The translations under genes and the position numbers were made by a program. Positions 9,301 through 46,525 of a DNA stretch of 64,000 nt are shown here, one piece after another. Under the pieces are notes generated by a model, which made no database searches, was not told the DNA's origin, and worked only from the letters and a program-made list of their open reading frames with translations. The stretch lies in contig CANJMF010000002.1 in the NCBI GenBank assembly GCA_947475895.1, positions 310,001-374,000 of the forward strand. Reading direction: 5' to 3'. This stretch comes from Fidelibacterota bacterium. Lineage in GTDB: Bacteria > Pseudomonadota > Alphaproteobacteria > Rhodospirillales > Rhodospirillaceae. Positions within the stretch are counted from its first letter, which is position 1. The number at the start of each line of letters is the position of its first letter.

Positions 9301-10043
9301 GCGAAACCGCAGTCGCGCTGCGGAGCGTCGCAAAGAATTTTCCCAACGGCATAGAGGCGCTGCGCGCGACCGATCTATCGATCGCTGAGGGCAGCTTCGT
9401 GAGTCTCGTCGGTCCGTCCGGGTGTGGAAAATCTACGCTTTTGCGCCTCATCGCAGGGTTACTCGCCCCCACGACAGGGACCATCGAACGCCATGACGAT
9501 CGCATGGGATTTGTGTTTCAAGACCCGACGCTGATGCCATGGGCCACGGCCCTTGAAAACGTCGCCTTACCTTTACGCTTGAATGGCGGCACCGACGACT
9601 CAAGCGCACGCCATGCGCTTCAGCGCCTCGGCCTTGATGGCTTTGCCGGCGCTTATCCCCATCAGCTGTCGGGCGGGATGCAGATGCGCGTATCCATCGC
9701 ACGCGCAACCGTCACGTCTCCGCGCCTTTTGCTCATGGATGAACCGTTCGCGGCCTTGGATGAATTCACCCGCTTTCGTCTCAACGACGATTTACGCGCT
9801 CTTTGGCAAAAACACGGTTGGACGGTCGTATTTGTAACCCACTCCGTTCAAGAAGCGGTTTTCTTGTCTCAACGTGTGATCGTCATGTCGCCGCGCCCGG
9901 GCGGTATTGTCGCGGATATGAGGATCGATCTCCCGCAGGAACGCAGAAACGATTTTCGCCTCAGCCATACATTCATCGACCAGTGCGCGTGCGTGAGCAC
10001 GTCACTCCATGCCGCCACGGCAGCGCAGGATTCTGCCGCATGA
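9297..10043 (+). CDS. ABC transporter ATP-binding protein (NitT/TauT/ThiZ type)
   Basis: This is a nucleotide-binding subunit of 248 residues. All elements are intact: Walker A GPSGCGKST at 39-47, Q-loop Gln75 in FQDP, signature LSGGM at 124-128, Walker B LLLMDEP ending at 150, and the switch histidine in VTHS. It powers the importer formed with the flanking binding protein and permease. The GTG start overlaps the upstream stop (GTGA) and its own TGA overlaps the permease ATG, so the three cistrons are translationally coupled. The C-terminal 40 residues are family-variable. Confidence 0.95.
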   Translation: MSETAVALRSVAKNFPNGIEALRATDLSIAEGSFVSLVGPSGCGKSTLLRLIAGLLAPTTGTIERHDDRMGFVFQDPTLMPWATALENVALPLRLNGGTDDSSARHALQRLGLDGFAGAYPHQLSGGMQMRVSIARATVTSPRLLLMDEPFAALDEFTRFRLNDDLRALWQKHGWTVVFVTHSVQEAVFLSQRVIVMSPRPGGIVADMRIDLPQERRNDFRLSHTFIDQCACVSTSLHAATAAQDSAA

Positions 10044-10822
10044 GAGCCGCTGGAAAGGTGATCCTGCCCTTTTTATTTGGCGCTCTGCTCCTCATCATTT
10101 GGGAAGTCGCTATTCGCCTGAATCACATCCCGCAATTCATACTGCCGGCACCCAGCGCCATTGCGATCTCGCTGTGGAAAGACGGTCCCGACTTGTTGCG
10201 TAACCTCTCGGTAACCGTGGAGGTGACGCTCGTTGCTTTGCTGCTCGCGACCATAACAGGGGTGGCCATCGCCGTGGCACTGGCTCAATGGCCCCTCGCG
10301 GAACGCACGTTCTTTCCGTACGCCGTGTTCATTCAAGTCACGCCCATCGTTACGATCGCACCCTTCATTATTATTTGGGTCGAGAACATTTTTGTGGTGC
10401 TGCTGATCCTCGCCTGGATGGCCGCCGTGTTTCCGATCATCTCCAACACGCTCCTCGGCCTCAAAAGCGCCAGCGCAAATTTACGCGAGTTGTTCCGGCT
10501 TTATCGGGCATCGCGTTGGCAGACGCTCCGCCGGCTCCTGATTCCGACGGCCCTACCCTATTTCCTCGGTGGCTTGCGGATCAGCGGCGGATTGGCGCTG
10601 ATTGGAACGGTCGTCGCGGAAATGGTTGCGGGCACGTCCGGTGCACAATCTGGATTGGCGTCCCGGTTATTGGAGGCGAGCTACCGCCTTGAGCTGCCGC
10701 GTGCCATGGCCTGCTTCGTGTTGCTGAGCGCAACCGGTCTTATTCTGTATTGGGCTCTGAAAGTTCTTTCCCATCGTCTACTGCGCCACTGGCACGAAAG
10801 CGCCCGCGGCATCGAAAACTAA
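10040..10822 (+). CDS. ABC transporter permease (NitT/TauT/ThiX type)
   Basis: This is a membrane subunit of 260 residues starting at the ATG that overlaps the ATPase stop; a longer in-frame opening back to 9803 lies inside the ATPase gene and is ignored. About six membrane helices can be seen. The cytoplasmic EAA loop that docks on the ATPase is recognisable around the segment ELFRLYRASRWQTLRRLLIP followed by LGGLRISGG. It completes a three-gene importer preceded by a cyclase. It ends two bases before the convergent mtnA stop. Confidence 0.93.
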   Translation: MRAAGKVILPFLFGALLLIIWEVAIRLNHIPQFILPAPSAIAISLWKDGPDLLRNLSVTVEVTLVALLLATITGVAIAVALAQWPLAERTFFPYAVFIQVTPIVTIAPFIIIWVENIFVVLLILAWMAAVFPIISNTLLGLKSASANLRELFRLYRASRWQTLRRLLIPTALPYFLGGLRISGGLALIGTVVAEMVAGTSGAQSGLASRLLEASYRLELPRAMACFVLLSATGLILYWALKVLSHRLLRHWHESARGIEN

Positions 10823-10824
10823 TG

Positions 10825-11925
10825 CTACTCAGCGGCCTCCTGACGGCGCTCAGGGAAAAGTTCTAGCAATCCCTCACGGCTGGCCTCGCAAATTCCCCGC
10901 TCCATAATCAACCCCGTTACAAATCGCGCTGGGGTCACATCGAAACCGAGATTCAGTGCTGGGCTTGTCTCCGGCACAACACGAACCGTTTCCAGCTTTC
11001 CATCGGCCGTGAGACCGGAGATATGAGTCAACTCGCGCGCATCGCGCTCTTCAATGGGAATGTCGTTTCCGCTCTTCATGCGCCAGTCGATAGTCGTCGA
11101 TGGAAGGGCCACATAAAACGGTACGCCGTTATCATGCGCCGCGAGCGCTTTCAGGTAAGTGCCCACTTTGTTACAGACGTCGCCGTTAATACAGGTGCGG
11201 TCACTTCCGACGATGGCCATGTCGACACGCCCTTCGCGCATTAAATGCCCGCCAAGGTTGTCCGCAATGACCGTGTGCGGCACGCCATGGGAACCAAGCT
11301 CATAAGCTGTGAGAAATGCGCCTTGGTTGCGAGGCCGCGTCTCATCGACCCATACATGAACCGGGATGCCTTCGTTATGAGCTTTATAAATCGGCGCCAG
11401 AGCCGTTCCCCAGTCGACGCACGCCAGCCACCCAGCATTGCAATGAGTGAGAATGTTCACGGTGCGCTTCTTTTCATCGGCAATGCGGCGAATGACATTG
11501 GCTCCGAATCCTCCGATTGCCTCGCATTGCGCCACGTCTGCGTCGCAAATCGAAGCCGCGCGGGCGAATGCCGCCTGCGTGCGACCTTGTGGGGATAATG
11601 GCTGCAGGTGCGCGACCATGTCCTCGATGGCCCACGCCAGGTTAATGGCCGTAGGACGTGCCGCGCGCAGAAATTTCGCGCTCGAGGCCAAATGATTGTC
11701 AGATGAGTCGGCTTTCATCGCCAACGCCATGCCGTAAGCCGCCGTGGCTCCGATCAAGGGCGCCCCACGAACGATCATCGTTTTGATGGCGCGTTCGGCA
11801 TCGGCCACCGTATGAAGCTCAACGACCGAGAGTTCAAACGGCAAACGTGTTTGATCAATGACGCACACGCGGGCGTTGTCGGCTTCGCGCCAAATCGTCC
11901 GATAATTTCTGCCGTCGATCTTCAT
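10825..11925 (-). CDS. mtnA: S-methyl-5-thioribose-1-phosphate isomerase
   Basis: This enzyme converts 5-methylthioribose-1-phosphate to 5-methylthioribulose-1-phosphate in methylthioadenosine recycling. It has 366 residues, typical of MtnA, an eIF2B-like fold. Family signatures are visible: RGAPLIGATAAYG, the catalytic cysteine in LTHCNAG, and the catalytic Asp in VGSDRTCINGDVCNKVGT. The product of MtnP, encoded 2.7 kb away, is its substrate. None of the later salvage enzymes (MtnB, MtnC, MtnD) is in the window. A ribosome site AAGGA lies upstream of the ATG. It is divergent from the IclR-type gene and convergent with the ABC permease, with only 2 bp between stops. Confidence 0.95.
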   Translation of the reverse strand: MKIDGRNYRTIWREADNARVCVIDQTRLPFELSVVELHTVADAERAIKTMIVRGAPLIGATAAYGMALAMKADSSDNHLASSAKFLRAARPTAINLAWAIEDMVAHLQPLSPQGRTQAAFARAASICDADVAQCEAIGGFGANVIRRIADEKKRTVNILTHCNAGWLACVDWGTALAPIYKAHNEGIPVHVWVDETRPRNQGAFLTAYELGSHGVPHTVIADNLGGHLMREGRVDMAIVGSDRTCINGDVCNKVGTYLKALAAHDNGVPFYVALPSTTIDWRMKSGNDIPIEERDARELTHISGLTADGKLETVRVVPETSPALNLGFDVTPARFVTGLIMERGICEASREGLLELFPERRQEAAE

Positions 11926-12244
11926 CTACAACTATTCCTTGATTGGTGTGCTATTCGACGCAACTTAGAGCCCCACGTCATCGCTATTCCAACAGGTTTG
12001 ACACACACACACGACGCCAACGTTACCTATGTTGCCGTCATTGCTCCATCCAACCGGCTCATCAATTCGTTCATAGGCTTTCGGCCTCTGCATGGAGCGC
12101 GCCCATCATAGTGCATGTACGTGAAATGTTTTCGAGTTTGGTTGACTTTGATAACTGGGAATTGAAAGTGGCGCGTGGCTGCAGTCTATCGGCAGCTATT
12201 CCTCTGCTGCCCTTAAAACCATCATTATGCGGTGAAAGAAGACG
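11926..12244. promoter_or_regulatory. Divergent promoter region, mtnA / IclR-type regulator
   Basis: This 319-bp region lies between divergent genes and should contain both promoters. A TTGACT at about 12139 resembles a -35 element for the rightward gene, but no clear -10 at good spacing is seen. A short (AC)n run of about 13 bases lies near 12001. I found no riboswitch-like fold. Confidence 0.35.
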
Positions 12245-12278
12245 ATGAAAGACTCCGTCGGCTGGACGCGTTTTTGAA

Positions 12279-12977
12279 GTGCTTGAGCTGTTCCATGTTG
12301 AACGCAAAGCGCTCACCGCCACCGGCATCGCCCGCAGCCTGAAGTATCCGGCGTCGAGCGCGGTAGCTTTGCTCAAAAGTCTGATTAATCGGGGCTATCT
12401 TTCTTACGACCCGGCCGAACGCACATACTTCCCGACCGTTCAGCTGTCGCTGATGACCCACTGGCTCGAAGACTCGTTCTATTCCGAAGGGCATCTGCTC
12501 GACCTTATGGACGAGATCGCCAAAGCCACCGGTGAAAATGTCTATCTGAGCTGGCAGAACGATCTTGAGATGCAAATCGCACTCGCCAAGAGCGGGACGC
12601 GCGAAGCGGGCCCAGTCGCCATAGAACCGCGACTTCCGTTATTTGACTCCGTTTCCGGATTGACGGCCTTGACGTTGAAACGCGATGTCGAGATCGCGCA
12701 GCTGGCCGAGCGCGCAAGCGCGTTGGGAAAAGCTTCCGGGACGAAGATAGATCTTCCCACCGCCATGGAACGCATTCGTTCGTTTCGCGCTCAGGGTTAT
12801 GGCCTCGGCTATGACTACCCCCAAGTCGGTGTCGGACTGTTAGCTTGGGCGTTGCGCCCGAAGACCGTTAATCGCCCCCTTGTGCTGCTCATCGCCGGCC
12901 CAACGGAACGCGTCCGCGCCGATGCAAAGTCCATATCTGTGGCTGTTCAGGCCGCTCTTCGCCGGCAAACGCCCTAA
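12279..12977 (+). CDS. IclR-type transcriptional regulator (5' end apparently disrupted)
   Basis: The product is 232 residues from GTG 12279. An N-terminal winged helix-turn-helix (about residues 1-55, with LTATGIARSLKYPASSAVALLKSL and RGYLSYD) is followed by an IclR effector-binding-like domain (about 70-230). Upstream in the same frame the codons read AGRVFEVLEL, the normal first helix of IclR HTH domains, but a TGA at 12246 blocks the frame. An ATG at 12245 is one base out of phase; removing one A from the AAA at 12248-12250 would give MKTPSAGRVFEVLEL joined perfectly. Either a one-base insertion, a sequencing error, or a truncated GTG-initiated protein is present. It is divergent from mtnA and may regulate it; that is inference. 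Confidence 0.7.
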   Translation: MLELFHVERKALTATGIARSLKYPASSAVALLKSLINRGYLSYDPAERTYFPTVQLSLMTHWLEDSFYSEGHLLDLMDEIAKATGENVYLSWQNDLEMQIALAKSGTREAGPVAIEPRLPLFDSVSGLTALTLKRDVEIAQLAERASALGKASGTKIDLPTAMERIRSFRAQGYGLGYDYPQVGVGLLAWALRPKTVNRPLVLLIAGPTERVRADAKSISVAVQAALRRQTP

Positions 12978-13105
12978 TATATTGAAAAATATAGGAATTT
13001 AAGAATCCGGCCGCAGTAGGGAACGTGAATTTTCCCCCTATACGTTTCGACTCACTCTTATATTTTACTTTTTATCTATATTAGTTCTTACTAGAAACTA
13101 TGAGA

Positions 13106-13217
13106 ATGCCCGTATGTCCCGCTTGGGACGGCATATCGGCAGATTTATGAGGGTGCTGCTCGCAATGAGGGATGGCGTTTCGAGCAAACGGTTGTCGCCC
13201 GCGACAGCCGTTTTTTT
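13106..13217 (+). ncRNA. Candidate structured RNA ending in an intrinsic terminator (sRNA or leader attenuator)
   Basis: Three adjacent hairpins are visible. H1 pairs 106-110 plus 116-120 with 125-134 (offsets from 13000), giving ten pairs, a GCTT loop and a five-base CGTAT bulge. H2 pairs TGCTCG at 13157-13162 with CGAGCA at 13181-13186 around an 18-nt loop. H3 is an 11-pair stem, 13187-13197 with 13202-13212, one G-U, CCCG loop, running into T211-217. H3 begins directly after H2. An AT-rich stretch, promoter-like in composition, lies just upstream. The gene for a REC-EAL protein starts 153 bases after the T-tract. No known RNA family was recognised. It could be a free small RNA or a conditional terminator in the EAL leader. 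Confidence 0.6.
13187..13217 (+). terminator. Intrinsic terminator upstream of the REC-EAL gene
   Basis: The 11-bp stem has one G-U pair and a CCCG tetraloop, and is followed by an uninterrupted run of seven T. This is the strongest rho-independent terminator seen in the window. It lies before, not after, a protein gene on the same strand. Confidence 0.8.
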
Positions 13218-13239
13218 GGGGGGTGCGAGTACCTCGCGC

Positions 13240-13374
13240 GTGGCCTGGCAACAGGAACGCATCGCCAAGCGTAATCAAACTGTAGGTCTCCCCGCCCTGC
13301 TGACCGCGATCCCGGCGGAATTGGCGCGCGTCGAGCCTTTGGTTAGGGACTTGGTTTCGGAGCACGCTCAATGA
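13240..13374 (+). CDS. Possible 44-aa protein coupled to the REC-EAL gene
   Basis: An open frame runs through this stretch and its TGA overlaps the EAL-gene ATG as ATGA, an arrangement typical of translational coupling. The frame is open back to 13114, but the upstream part contains the intrinsic terminator, so a start after it (GTG 13240) is the more sensible reading. The product would be a charged helical peptide (WQQERIAKRNQ then Leu/Ala/Glu/Arg-rich) with no recognised family. No good ribosome site is seen before 13240. It may be only leader sequence. Confidence 0.25.
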   Translation: MAWQQERIAKRNQTVGLPALLTAIPAELARVEPLVRDLVSEHAQ

Positions 13375-14608
13375 TCATCAGCAACGACTCTGGTTTTAAT
13401 GCCGCGCACAACGAGGCGACAAAGCACTTACGCGTCCTCGTCGTGGACGACAAGGCATTCGTCCGAACCATGACCGGACGCGTATTGCAAAGCGCCGGGA
13501 TCGAACATATCGCCTACGCGAGCGACGGGAAGGAAGCCATTGCGCACATTCGACACGCCGAACCGCGCGTCGATCTCGTCCTGTGCGATTTGATGATGCC
13601 GGACATGGACGGCGTTGAAGTCGTGCGTCACGTCGCCGAGCTCGAGCACAAACCGGTTTTCGTCTTTATTAGCGGCGCTAACGTTTCGTTGTTGGGAACC
13701 GCGGTCGATATGGCGCGCGCACGCGGCCTTCATGTGCTGGGAGCTATTGAAAAGCCCATCAGCGTCGATGCCATTCGCGGCGTTCTCGTAAAGTTAAACG
13801 ATGTCGCTTCTTCCACCAAGATTGCCGCACCACAATTTGCCTTTACGACGCAAGACTTAGCCGAAGCGCTCGAGAAGGAGCAGTTTATCCTCCATTATCA
13901 GCCGAAGATTCGTTTGCGAACGCGCGCGATCGAAGGCTTCGAATCCTTGATCCGCTGGATTCATCCGCAGCACGGACTGATCCCCCCTGGGCAATTCATT
14001 TCGCTCGCCGAGGAAAGCGACATCATCAAGCCCCTCACCGACCGCGTCTTGCTGCTCGCCTTAAAACAATGCGCCGACTGGAAGCGCGCGGGCTTCTTCA
14101 CAAAAATCAGCGTCAACGTTTCAGCGCACCTACTCGTCGACTTAAGTATGCCGGATCGCGTTTTGCGCGAAGCAATCGCGCACGGCGTCGACCCAAAGCA
14201 AATCGTGCTTGAGATCACCGAGACCGGCGTCTTCCGGGATGCGGCCGATACGCTCGATATTCTCGCGCGTCTGCACATGAAGGGCTTTTCGCTATCCATC
14301 GACGATTTCGGCACCGGATACTCGTCCATGGAACAACTGCGCCGCGTGCCCTTCGCCGAGCTTAAAATCGACCGCGCCTTCGTCAACGGCGCTTCGCAAA
14401 ACATGAAGTCACGCGCCATTCTTCAATCCAGTGCGGCGCTTGGAAAAAGCCTTGGCATTTCAGTTGTCGCGGAAGGCGCCGAAACCGTCGAGGATTGGGA
14501 TTTATTGACCGAGCTGGGCGTGGATGTCGGGCAAGGCTTTTACGCCGCGCGTCCTATGCCGGGCGAAGACGTGCTGACTTGGTCGCGCAAATGGCAGCAG
14601 CAGGTTTC

Positions 14609-14612
<4 letters not shown>
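13371..14612 (+). CDS. Response regulator with EAL c-di-GMP phosphodiesterase domain
   Basis: The protein has 413 residues. The N-terminal receiver (about 20-140) has acidic Asp26-Asp27, phosphoacceptor Asp73, Ser101 and the conserved Lys128 of KP, so it looks phosphorylatable. The EAL domain (about 160-405) has the signature as ESL with Glu191. It keeps the other metal and catalytic residues: Asn249, Glu281, Asp311-Asp312 in DDFGTGYSS, Lys332, Glu368 and Gln388. It should hydrolyse c-di-GMP to pGpG under control of an unseen kinase. GGAG lies eight bases before the ATG. Its TAA shares four bases with the convergent mtnP stop. The structured RNA just upstream may control it. Confidence 0.93.
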
Positions 14613-15502
<890 letters not shown>

Positions 15503-15581
15503 GTGCGCTATAAATAAAAGGGGAACGGATTAGCGTTTTTGCATGTCCGGGAATGCAGTTCCAGAACTTTCATGGCCGGCG

Positions 15582-17222
15582 TTAGTGAGGTTCAAGCCAC
15601 ATGAAGCGCGTGCGGTGAAAATCTTCGGCGTTCGGGACAAAGCCTTTGACGTAAGACGCAACCAGCTCGCGTGATGTCGTGAAAGCCAATGGAATTGCGG
15701 CGCTTTCATCCAAGGCGATCTGTTCGGCACGCGCTAAGACCTGCGCGCGTTTCTCCAAATCCAAGATGCTCTTTGATTCATCAATCAGGCGATCGAACTC
15801 AAGGTTTGCATACCCCGCATAATTGAAGCCGCCGGACCGCGAATCCAAAAGAAAGAGAAACGCCTGCGGATCATTGTAATCGGCGACCCAAGCGACCGCA
15901 CCCATGTCAAAATCATGTTCGCGTAAGCCGGCATAGTGAATACGCAATTCATTGCCCACGAGGCGGCCGACGATTCCGCATTCCTTCCACAAAGCCGAGA
16001 GGCCTATAGCCATGCGTCGCGGTTCCTTCGCGAGCGCAAACTTATATTCAAAGACAAGCGGATGATCTGGCCCGTAACCGGCTTCCGCCAACAGCCGTTT
16101 GGCTTCTGCGCGTCTGCGCTCAACCGGCCAATCCGCAAAGTCCACCTTTGCCTGGGGCAAATAGTTATCCGTACCCGGCGGCACGAAGGAATAAGCCGGT
16201 ACGCGTCCATCGCGCATTACTTTAGTGGCCAGCAGTTCGCGGTCCGTACAAAGCGAAACCGCGCGGCGTACGCGCTGGTCATTGAAAGGCGGCCGACGCA
16301 TGTTAGGAGCCAGATAGCCATTGGAAAGTGAGGGCGTGGTAATCGCCTGCCCCGGCATGTTCTCAGCCAACCAATCGGCTTGCGCTGCTGGAAATCCGTA
16401 ATTCCCAATGTTGGCATCAAGTCCGCCGGCACGGAAGCGCGATAAAGCTACGCTCTCGTCGTTGATGGGATAAAAGTAGACCTCATCGATCTTCACATTC
16501 GCCGCATCGAAGAAGAGAGGATTTTTCACGAGCTTTACATATTCGTTGGGCTTCCACTCGGCGACTCTGTAAGGGCCGTTGCTCACAATGTGCTCGGGCT
16601 TCACCCATGCATCGCCAAACTTCTTGATTGTATGCTCGGGCGCGGGGTAGGCCGTATGGTGTTTCATCAGCCCCGGAAGAAATGGCGCCTGTTGCGACAA
16701 CGTGATCTCAAACGTGCGATCATCGATTGCGCGCACGCCCAAATCTTCCAGCGGCAACTTTCCGGAATTCACTTCTTCGGCATTTTTGATTACGTACTCC
16801 AGCGACGCATACTTCGCTGCCGTTTTCGGGTCCATTAATCGGCGAAAGCCAAAAACAAAATCGGCGGCCGTTACAGGCACTCCATCGGACCATTTAATCC
16901 CTGCCCGCAACTTGAAGGTCCAGACCAAGCCATCGTCGCTCGTTGTCCAACTCTCAGCCATACCGGGAATGGGCCGTGAAGCCGGATCCTCAGTCGTTAG
17001 TCCCATAAAGATGTCGCCCGTGACGCTACTTTCGGGGTGAGTCTCGACAATGACGGGATCGAGAGAAACCGGCTCAGCCAAATTGCCGCGACGGAACACC
17101 ATCGGCTCGGCGGCCTGAACAGGCCCCACGAGAGAATGGGCGACGACAAGCGCGAGGAGCGCCCGGGTGACAGCTAAGGGACAAAACACAAATGTCTTAT
17201 GCACGGCGTCACCGTATCGCAT
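15582..17222 (-). CDS. oppA: Oligopeptide ABC transporter substrate-binding protein (OppA/DppA family)
   Basis: The product has 546 residues from ATG 17222 (a GTG two codons earlier is also possible). A signal peptide of about 35 residues ends near VQA-AEP. The body is SBP_bac_5: it has the RGNLAEPVSLDPVIVETHPES opening, a GLVWTFKLRAGIKWSDG segment and conserved PNMRRPPFNDQRVRRAVSL. It binds peptides in the periplasm, as in E. coli OppA/MppA. No permease or ATPase gene for it is nearby, so it is an orphan that must use a complex encoded elsewhere, or act in murein peptide recycling like MppA. Confidence 0.9.
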   Translation of the reverse strand: MRYGDAVHKTFVFCPLAVTRALLALVVAHSLVGPVQAAEPMVFRRGNLAEPVSLDPVIVETHPESSVTGDIFMGLTTEDPASRPIPGMAESWTTSDDGLVWTFKLRAGIKWSDGVPVTAADFVFGFRRLMDPKTAAKYASLEYVIKNAEEVNSGKLPLEDLGVRAIDDRTFEITLSQQAPFLPGLMKHHTAYPAPEHTIKKFGDAWVKPEHIVSNGPYRVAEWKPNEYVKLVKNPLFFDAANVKIDEVYFYPINDESVALSRFRAGGLDANIGNYGFPAAQADWLAENMPGQAITTPSLSNGYLAPNMRRPPFNDQRVRRAVSLCTDRELLATKVMRDGRVPAYSFVPPGTDNYLPQAKVDFADWPVERRRAEAKRLLAEAGYGPDHPLVFEYKFALAKEPRRMAIGLSALWKECGIVGRLVGNELRIHYAGLREHDFDMGAVAWVADYNDPQAFLFLLDSRSGGFNYAGYANLEFDRLIDESKSILDLEKRAQVLARAEQIALDESAAIPLAFTTSRELVASYVKGFVPNAEDFHRTRFMWLEPH

Positions 17223-17252
17223 CCCCACTCATAAATCATCCGCGCAACGGTG

Positions 17253-18128
17253 TTACTGAGAGGCCTGGAAAGCCTGCGTTTCCTGAATAAACTTCACGAC
17301 GTCGTTCAAGACCGGCGCGCGTTTACGAAACGGCCGTGCAAAAGCAGCCATGATTCCGATGTGCCCAATGTCATCATAGAAGACAGCCCGCGCGGAACCG
17401 CCATAGGCGTTGATCTGGGATGTGAGCTGCTCGGTGTTGGCGGGCAAAACGGTTGTGTCGGCGCGGCCATGCGCAAGGAACACGGCGAGATCCTTGCCGC
17501 CGCGCGCATAATTGATGGGGCGCGCCCGCTCCAGGTCGCCGGTGCCGAGAAATACATCGCGAACGTTTTCCGTCTGCTCGGGATGAAACGCGTATGGCCC
17601 CGCAAGTCCGATGAACCCATGCACCGCGTTTTCAGCGCCCGCTGCCGCGGCATAGCTGGGATCGAGCGCCACCAGCGCCGCAATGTGCGCGCCCGCCGAG
17701 TGACCCATCAGATAAATTCCGCGCCCATTGCCGCCGTAGGCTTCGATATGAGTCCGCACCCACTGAAGCGCGTGTGCGCCATCGTTCACAAACGCGGGGA
17801 ATTTCACGGCAGGATAGACACGATAATCCGCGATCACCGTCACGATGCCGTGCGACGCGAACGCTTCGCCCAGAAATTTATACTGCGTGCGGGAGCCGAA
17901 CTTCCAACTACCGCCGTAGAAAAACAAAACAACGGGCCTTACGCCCTGCCCGTCAGCCTTCGGTCGGTACACATCGAGAATTTGCCGTGGATCGGACCCA
18001 TACGGCAGCCCCGCATCGAGACGGTAGCTGCCCGATGGCACCAGCGCGTTGACGGCGTCCATGGCCGCATTGGTGCAGCCACTGAGAAATGCAGTGAAAG
18101 CGACAGTGATCCAGCGCAGCATGGGCAA
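17253..18128 (-). CDS. Lipoprotein alpha/beta hydrolase (carboxylesterase)
   Basis: The protein has 291 residues. A short signal ends in a good lipobox LSGC with Cys18, so it is probably a membrane-anchored lipoprotein. The fold is the esterase/lipase type related to BD-FAE. The oxyanion segment is FYGGSW (Tyr in place of the usual His), and the nucleophile serine is in GHSAGAH. The acid and base are likely Asp in AHGRADTTV and His in DDIGHIGIM. The substrate is unknown; short acyl esters are expected. It lies 30 bp upstream of the OppA-like gene and 14 bp downstream of the small gene at 18143, so it sits in a probable operon. Confidence 0.87.
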   Translation of the reverse strand: MPMLRWITVAFTAFLSGCTNAAMDAVNALVPSGSYRLDAGLPYGSDPRQILDVYRPKADGQGVRPVVLFFYGGSWKFGSRTQYKFLGEAFASHGIVTVIADYRVYPAVKFPAFVNDGAHALQWVRTHIEAYGGNGRGIYLMGHSAGAHIAALVALDPSYAAAAGAENAVHGFIGLAGPYAFHPEQTENVRDVFLGTGDLERARPINYARGGKDLAVFLAHGRADTTVLPANTEQLTSQINAYGGSARAVFYDDIGHIGIMAAFARPFRKRAPVLNDVVKFIQETQAFQASQ

Positions 18129-46371: not shown

Positions 46372-46525
46372 CGTCTTTCTCCATCTCTAAAACATGGCGC
46401 GGAGCATAGTCGCTTTACCGCCGGCTGCAAGGTTTGCGCGCCACAACCTAACGCCCTGACTTGTAACGATAATCCTGAGGCAAAATTCACCTCTAGGCTG
46501 CCGACAAAAGCCGTTTGGTGTTGAT

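Follow-up and report, generated by a model that had tools for sequence, protein, structure and literature searches.

An intrinsic terminator ahead of a REC-EAL phosphodiesterase gene, within the probable remains of a lost sensor-kinase gene

Introduction

Why would a strong intrinsic terminator stand just ahead of, and on the same strand as, an apparently intact signalling gene? The arrangement occurs in a stretch of 64,000 nucleotides of bacterial DNA (the window), where a terminator-like hairpin precedes a gene for a REC-EAL c-di-GMP phosphodiesterase. An earlier note, made from the letters alone, had described three successive hairpins here as a structured RNA, to be read as a free small RNA or as a conditional terminator within the phosphodiesterase gene's leader. 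Our analysis confirms that observation in part and gives partial support to its interpretation: judged from sequence comparison, the locus appears to hold what is left of a lost sensor-kinase gene, and not a regulatory RNA of a new, three-part kind. The features concerned, with the evidence for each, are as follows (G006 and G014 are related genomes of the genus).

12279-12977, + strand: IclR-type regulator gene, the upstream neighbour (Pfam IclR_C, 2.6e-7; HTH_IclR, 3.2e-7)
12978-13113, + strand: AT-rich gap (31.7% G+C over 12978-13100), in the same place as the gap from IclR stop to kinase start in G006 and G014
13114-13164, + strand: first in-frame ATG codons and leader, with hairpins 1 and 2 of the earlier note here and just after (folding at chance level)
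13165-13254, + strand: possible beginning of the lost kinase's coding sequence (opens with ATGAGGGAT, like the G014 kinase; spacing and a weak protein match)
13186-13217, + strand: intrinsic terminator, made up of an A tract, a stem, a CCCG loop and seven T (pattern scan and folding)
13255-13374, + strand: Hpt-tail remnant of the lost hybrid histidine kinase, matched over 13255-13365 (profile E 4.5e-5)
13371-14612, + strand: REC-EAL c-di-GMP phosphodiesterase gene, intact, with no kinase beside it (Response_reg 2.6e-18; EAL 6.5e-69)

Results

The hairpin at 13186-13217 has the make-up of an intrinsic terminator: a stable G+C-rich stem, a short loop and a U tract immediately after. Its arms occupy 13186-13197 and 13202-13213 around the CCCG loop (13198-13201), and seven T fill 13211-13217. 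The loop and T run are as originally described; the stem, given then as 11 pairs, has 12 including one G-U, or a 9-pair core if the three basal A-T pairs are assigned to the U tract. Its folding energy is -17.5 kcal/mol (z -4.87, with 0 of 200 shuffles as good, for a segment chosen after the fact). Under a looser pattern rule, both strands of the window together hold three terminator-like matches, with stems of 12, 8 and 8 pairs, the longest being this one; the looser rule is satisfied by chance fairly often, stems of at least 11 pairs numbering 12 in 400 kb of contig C1 of the same genome vs. 4 in one 400-kb Markov sequence. A strict rule, set after the hairpin had been seen, asked for a core of at least 8 pairs with at most one G-U and at least five G-C, followed immediately by at least six T; it gave one match in the window, one in the 400 kb of C1 and one in 8 Mb of Markov sequence. 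The chance expectation is then 0.008 per 64 kb, and by this post hoc rule the hairpin is rarer than chance. As the longest looser-rule match and the only strict-rule match, it is the strongest terminator in the window, which agrees with the earlier note. When the symmetric stem pattern was searched for throughout the genome, 13186-13217 was its sole site; the exact sequence had no match in viral contigs, and the list of a stock terminator scanner lacked the hairpin. The hairpin probably ends transcription in the cell.

Its position, rather than its structure, is what sets it apart, as it stands 208 nt past the stop of the IclR-type gene and 153 nt ahead of the start of the REC-EAL gene, upstream of that gene and on its strand as first reported. 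In the 400 kb of C1, 10 of the 12 matches with stems of at least 11 pairs sit between predicted ORFs (by simple ORF calling), with 8 of the 10 following a same-strand stop at a distance of 6-72 nt; this genome thus employs intrinsic terminators. Given its distances from both neighbours, the hairpin in the window is therefore unlikely to be merely the end of the IclR-type gene. It resembles Rho-independent terminators, others in its own genome among them, in A tract, G+C-rich stem, tetraloop and U run, but it differs from them in lying inside an open frame, close before a same-strand gene and far past the last intact one. Two other strong terminator-like hairpins on C1 were noted: one at 46475-46503 (+ strand, L089) precedes a same-strand ORF by 36 nt and follows the last same-strand stop by 2417 nt, as a candidate leader or small RNA, and one at 322029-322060 (- strand, L103), with the closest same-strand stop 884 nt upstream, is a candidate for the end of a small RNA.

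The remainder of the proposed three-hairpin RNA did not hold up. Once the terminator is excluded, folding is at the level of chance: z is -0.43 for 13085-13186, -0.75 for 13101-13162 and -0.45 for 13150-13186, and 63, 50 and 60 of 200 shuffles, respectively, fold as well; the entire 13080-13240 reaches z -2.07 (8 of 200), mostly due to the terminator. One predicted hairpin, 13157-13186, carries the ATG at 13165 within its stem. Upstream partners for either terminator arm, which could form an antiterminator, were no better than in shuffles (17% and 16% as good). Searches of Rfam and of the DNA of relatives yielded no support: Rfam had nothing at the locus when the whole window was scanned at the gathering threshold (two tRNAs lie elsewhere) and nothing at E 5 over 12960-13400. 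A DNA search with 13085-13222 at E up to 1 against the 18 other genus genomes, not all of them complete, gave short, weak matches in 17, the best at E 0.14 over 27 bases. The best non-self match to this query lay on contig C25 of the same genome (23 bases, E 0.0014) and, judged from its text, was taken for chance. With 12980-13371 as query against 60 relatives and the own genome, one short match besides self appeared, in G008 (37 bases, E 4.8e-4); we rejected it as a related locus because it sits in a different long open frame and the locus is not comparable.

The note had also called the flanks AT-rich and of promoter type. The first description fits upstream, where 12978-13100 has 31.7% G+C, a value equally low in only 0.00009 of 123-bp windows, but fails downstream, where 13218-13371 has 63.6%. 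A scan covering sigma-70-type promoters found none in 10000-18000, against 3.9 expected in shuffles. The AT-rich gap at 12978-13113 probably corresponds to the promoter region of the former kinase.

To place the locus, we compared gene order across the genus. A close orthologue of the REC-EAL gene (E 1e-100 or better) is present in 5 of 19 genus genomes (the present one, G000, and G002, G005, G006 and G014), the four others at 66-73% identity. In all four relatives REC-EAL is followed by MTAP, and mtnA flanks the locus on the opposite side, the mtnA of G014 being cut by a contig end. The full order in G006 and G014 is mtnA, an IclR-type gene, a hybrid histidine kinase ending in Hpt, REC-EAL and MTAP, with the IclR homologue directly before the kinase. 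The window's IclR-type gene matches these homologues (tblastn, 52% identity, E 4.5e-75, to L108 and 51%, E 2.3e-72, to L037); the compared stretches of G005 and G002 hold no match to it. A kinase precedes REC-EAL in three of the five orthologue-holding genomes, directly in G005 and G006 and with one frame between, reading like a receiver protein, in G014. Domain scans of the G014 and G005 kinases give PAS-HisKA-HATPase_c-Response_reg-Hpt, and the G006 kinase spans two contig ends, its parts matching query residues 3-909 and 909-1227.

Beside REC-EAL, the kinase is missing in the other two, G000 and G002; the best kinase match in G000 is on a different contig, at 32% identity. The genes around the window's gap match those that surround the intact kinase in relatives, and the window therefore has the order of G006 and G014 minus the kinase, which shows a kinase loss at this locus. 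In G002, the gap from mtnA to REC-EAL holds no kinase, no kinase-tail remnant and no terminator-like hairpin, apparently the result of a separate loss. A palindrome-like stretch, TTAATAATTGCGA(C/G)TATTAACCAT, is shared by G005 (L035:7064-7087, before the kinase) and G002 (L036:7251-7274, before REC-EAL), on the minus strand in each; it is a possible operator, and the window has no copy with up to 3 mismatches.

The end of the missing kinase can be recognized in the frame that crosses the hairpin. This frame, counted from 13114 or 13165 to 13374, is open through the hairpin, and its stop overlaps the REC-EAL start as ATGA, the same overlap as in G006. A profile of seven kinase tails, built with the window excluded, was run against 1465 six-frame segments of the window, and its only match below the inclusion threshold was this tail (E 4.5e-5 over 37 positions). 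Pairwise, none of 5000 shuffles reached the score of the tail with G014, G005 or G006, and a fraction of 0.0002 did so with G010. By tblastn the tail matched L035 (E 1.3e-5, 44% identity), L038 (E 1.7e-4, 36% identity) and two more distant kinases (E 0.038 and 0.14), with no match to L037, the G014 kinase. Pfam assigned no domain, Hpt included, to the short frame, and a protein search with its 86 residues in 61 genomes at E 0.001 returned only itself. The profile and shuffle comparisons identify a kinase Hpt tail in the remnant frame. The locus thus shares with the pairs of hybrid kinase (PAS-HisKA-HATPase-REC-Hpt) and REC-EAL in relatives the Hpt tail, the gene order and the start-stop overlap of G006, and differs in that the kinase domains are gone, with the tail and perhaps the first codons left.

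That the front of the frame goes back to the original kinase start is suggested by spacing. The ATG at 13165 stands 187 nt past the IclR stop, vs. 191 nt in G014 and 220 nt in G006 for kinase starts that we chose ourselves, and the frame from there begins ATGAGGGAT, as does the G014 kinase. Shuffle tests of the front part gave p values of 0.0075 (G014), 0.16 (G005) and 0.60 (G006) for protein alignments and 0.22 (G014), 0.33 (G006) and 0.96 (G005) for DNA alignments, and a profile of three kinase N-termini does not single out the stretch at 13165; together these offer weak support for a retained start. If 13165 is the old start, the stem would cover what were kinase codons 8-17. In G014 a weak hairpin rich in G-U pairs stands almost as far from the IclR stop codon (205-207 vs. 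211 nt), and the loose rule finds no terminator-like hairpin in the compared stretches of G006, G005 and G002. Codon scores are -2.5 bits over 17 codons for 13114-13164 and 1.8 bits over 30 codons for 13165-13254, the latter reached by 31% of non-coding open stretches, with 8% of coding stretches as low; the score of the tail is reached by 18% of non-coding stretches, with 20% of coding ones as low. Because the two classes overlap for front and tail alike, codon use does not decide coding status. Conserved codons through the terminator had been named as the finding that would speak for a protein gene and against an RNA; a kinase tail does lie in frame 3' of the terminator, but the codons through the hairpin itself are weakly matched. 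The open frame across 13211-13223 rests on a T7G6 run, a place for indels, slippage or assembly error; read as codons, the run forms two heptamers of the slippery type.

The phosphodiesterase gene behind the hairpin gives no sign of decay in its sequence. It has no internal stop, and its branch length is 0.24, compared with 0.06, 0.12, 0.14 and 0.33 for the genus orthologues, in a tree whose G014 row carried about a dozen upstream residues including one stop and whose G073 row carried a few, with a small expected effect. By eye, its catalytic residues are present: the E of the EAL-type motif (which reads ESL), DDFGTG, the K of LKID and the E of AEGAE. A scan of wider genome contigs with the REC-EAL protein, whose best 80 listed loci had 27-47% identity and included no close orthologue, was left out of the analysis. 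Because it appears undecayed, the gene is probably still expressed; and since a fully efficient terminator would silence this apparently conserved gene, leakiness with read-through, or another promoter, must be assumed.

Discussion

We think it reasonably probable that 13186-13217 is a lineage-specific intrinsic terminator inside a kinase-gene remnant, where it damps an orphaned phosphodiesterase. A deletion would have removed the hybrid histidine kinase gene that formerly stood ahead of REC-EAL. What stayed behind would be the pre-kinase gap, perhaps the gene's opening codons, and about 37 codons from the Hpt tail, now fused into a single open frame that retains the overlap with the REC-EAL start. 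The terminator, without counterpart in the relatives examined, lies in the front part of this frame and most likely stops most transcripts arriving from the AT-rich gap or the IclR-type gene. Read-through would feed the REC-EAL gene, the orphaned phosphodiesterase being made at a low level, and its translation may be coupled to that of the remnant frame.

Among the alternatives, the most interesting is control of expression through translation of the remnant. Ribosomes on 13165-13374 would cross the hairpin and let polymerase pass into REC-EAL, so that expression would depend on initiation at the remnant. In its favour, no stop interrupts the frame at the hairpin, the frame closes in the ATGA overlap, a start codon is held in the predicted stem 13157-13186, and the gene behind the terminator is intact; against it stand a front part whose codon score is indistinguishable from non-coding sequence, a start-codon hairpin for which 60 of 200 shuffles fold as well, and an arrangement that no relative shares. 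Leader-peptide attenuators of the trp type likewise combine an open frame with a terminator in a gene leader, but here no antiterminator pairing is seen and the frame ends in the remnant of a gene. We regard such an attenuator as unlikely. Still more speculative, and to our minds improbable, is the further idea that the remnant ends have become a new control element, translated, with the terminator in its first codons and start-stop coupled, an attenuator that replaces the phosphorelay input.

A free small RNA of about 100-130 nt, running from the AT-rich gap to 13217, would account for the AT-rich DNA upstream and for a terminator farther past the IclR stop than 8 of the 12 strong C1 matches (6-72 nt). 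The body of such an RNA folds at chance, however, with no Rfam match, no credible match in the 18 other genus genomes and no promoter match, which makes this reading of the earlier note quite doubtful. The same distance, 208 nt vs. 6-72 nt for most of the strong terminators examined, weighs against reading the hairpin simply as where the IclR-type gene's transcript stops, after a long 3' untranslated region, with REC-EAL served by a promoter of its own after the hairpin. The hairpin is indeed on the same strand and the first terminator-like match past that gene, but an AT-rich gap precedes it and no promoter match falls within 13217-13371, and we consider this explanation very improbable. Least credible of all is a ligand-binding riboswitch, for c-di-GMP or another ligand, controlling REC-EAL: its attraction is that the leader of a c-di-GMP gene contains a terminator, and that much of the conditional-terminator proposal stands by sequence, but ligand control finds no backing in Rfam, in a competing pairing better than shuffles or in conservation.

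Under the preferred explanation, a lineage-specific terminator within a kinase-gene remnant, the hairpin itself is of an ordinary kind, and gene loss accounts for its unusual position. Ahead of a signalling gene, a convincing terminator with an odd open frame can thus be the scar of a lost gene and not a new RNA class, and synteny is the check that tells the two apart. The locus is, in addition, a small natural example of a REC-EAL phosphodiesterase left without its kinase whose own sequence has been retained since that loss.
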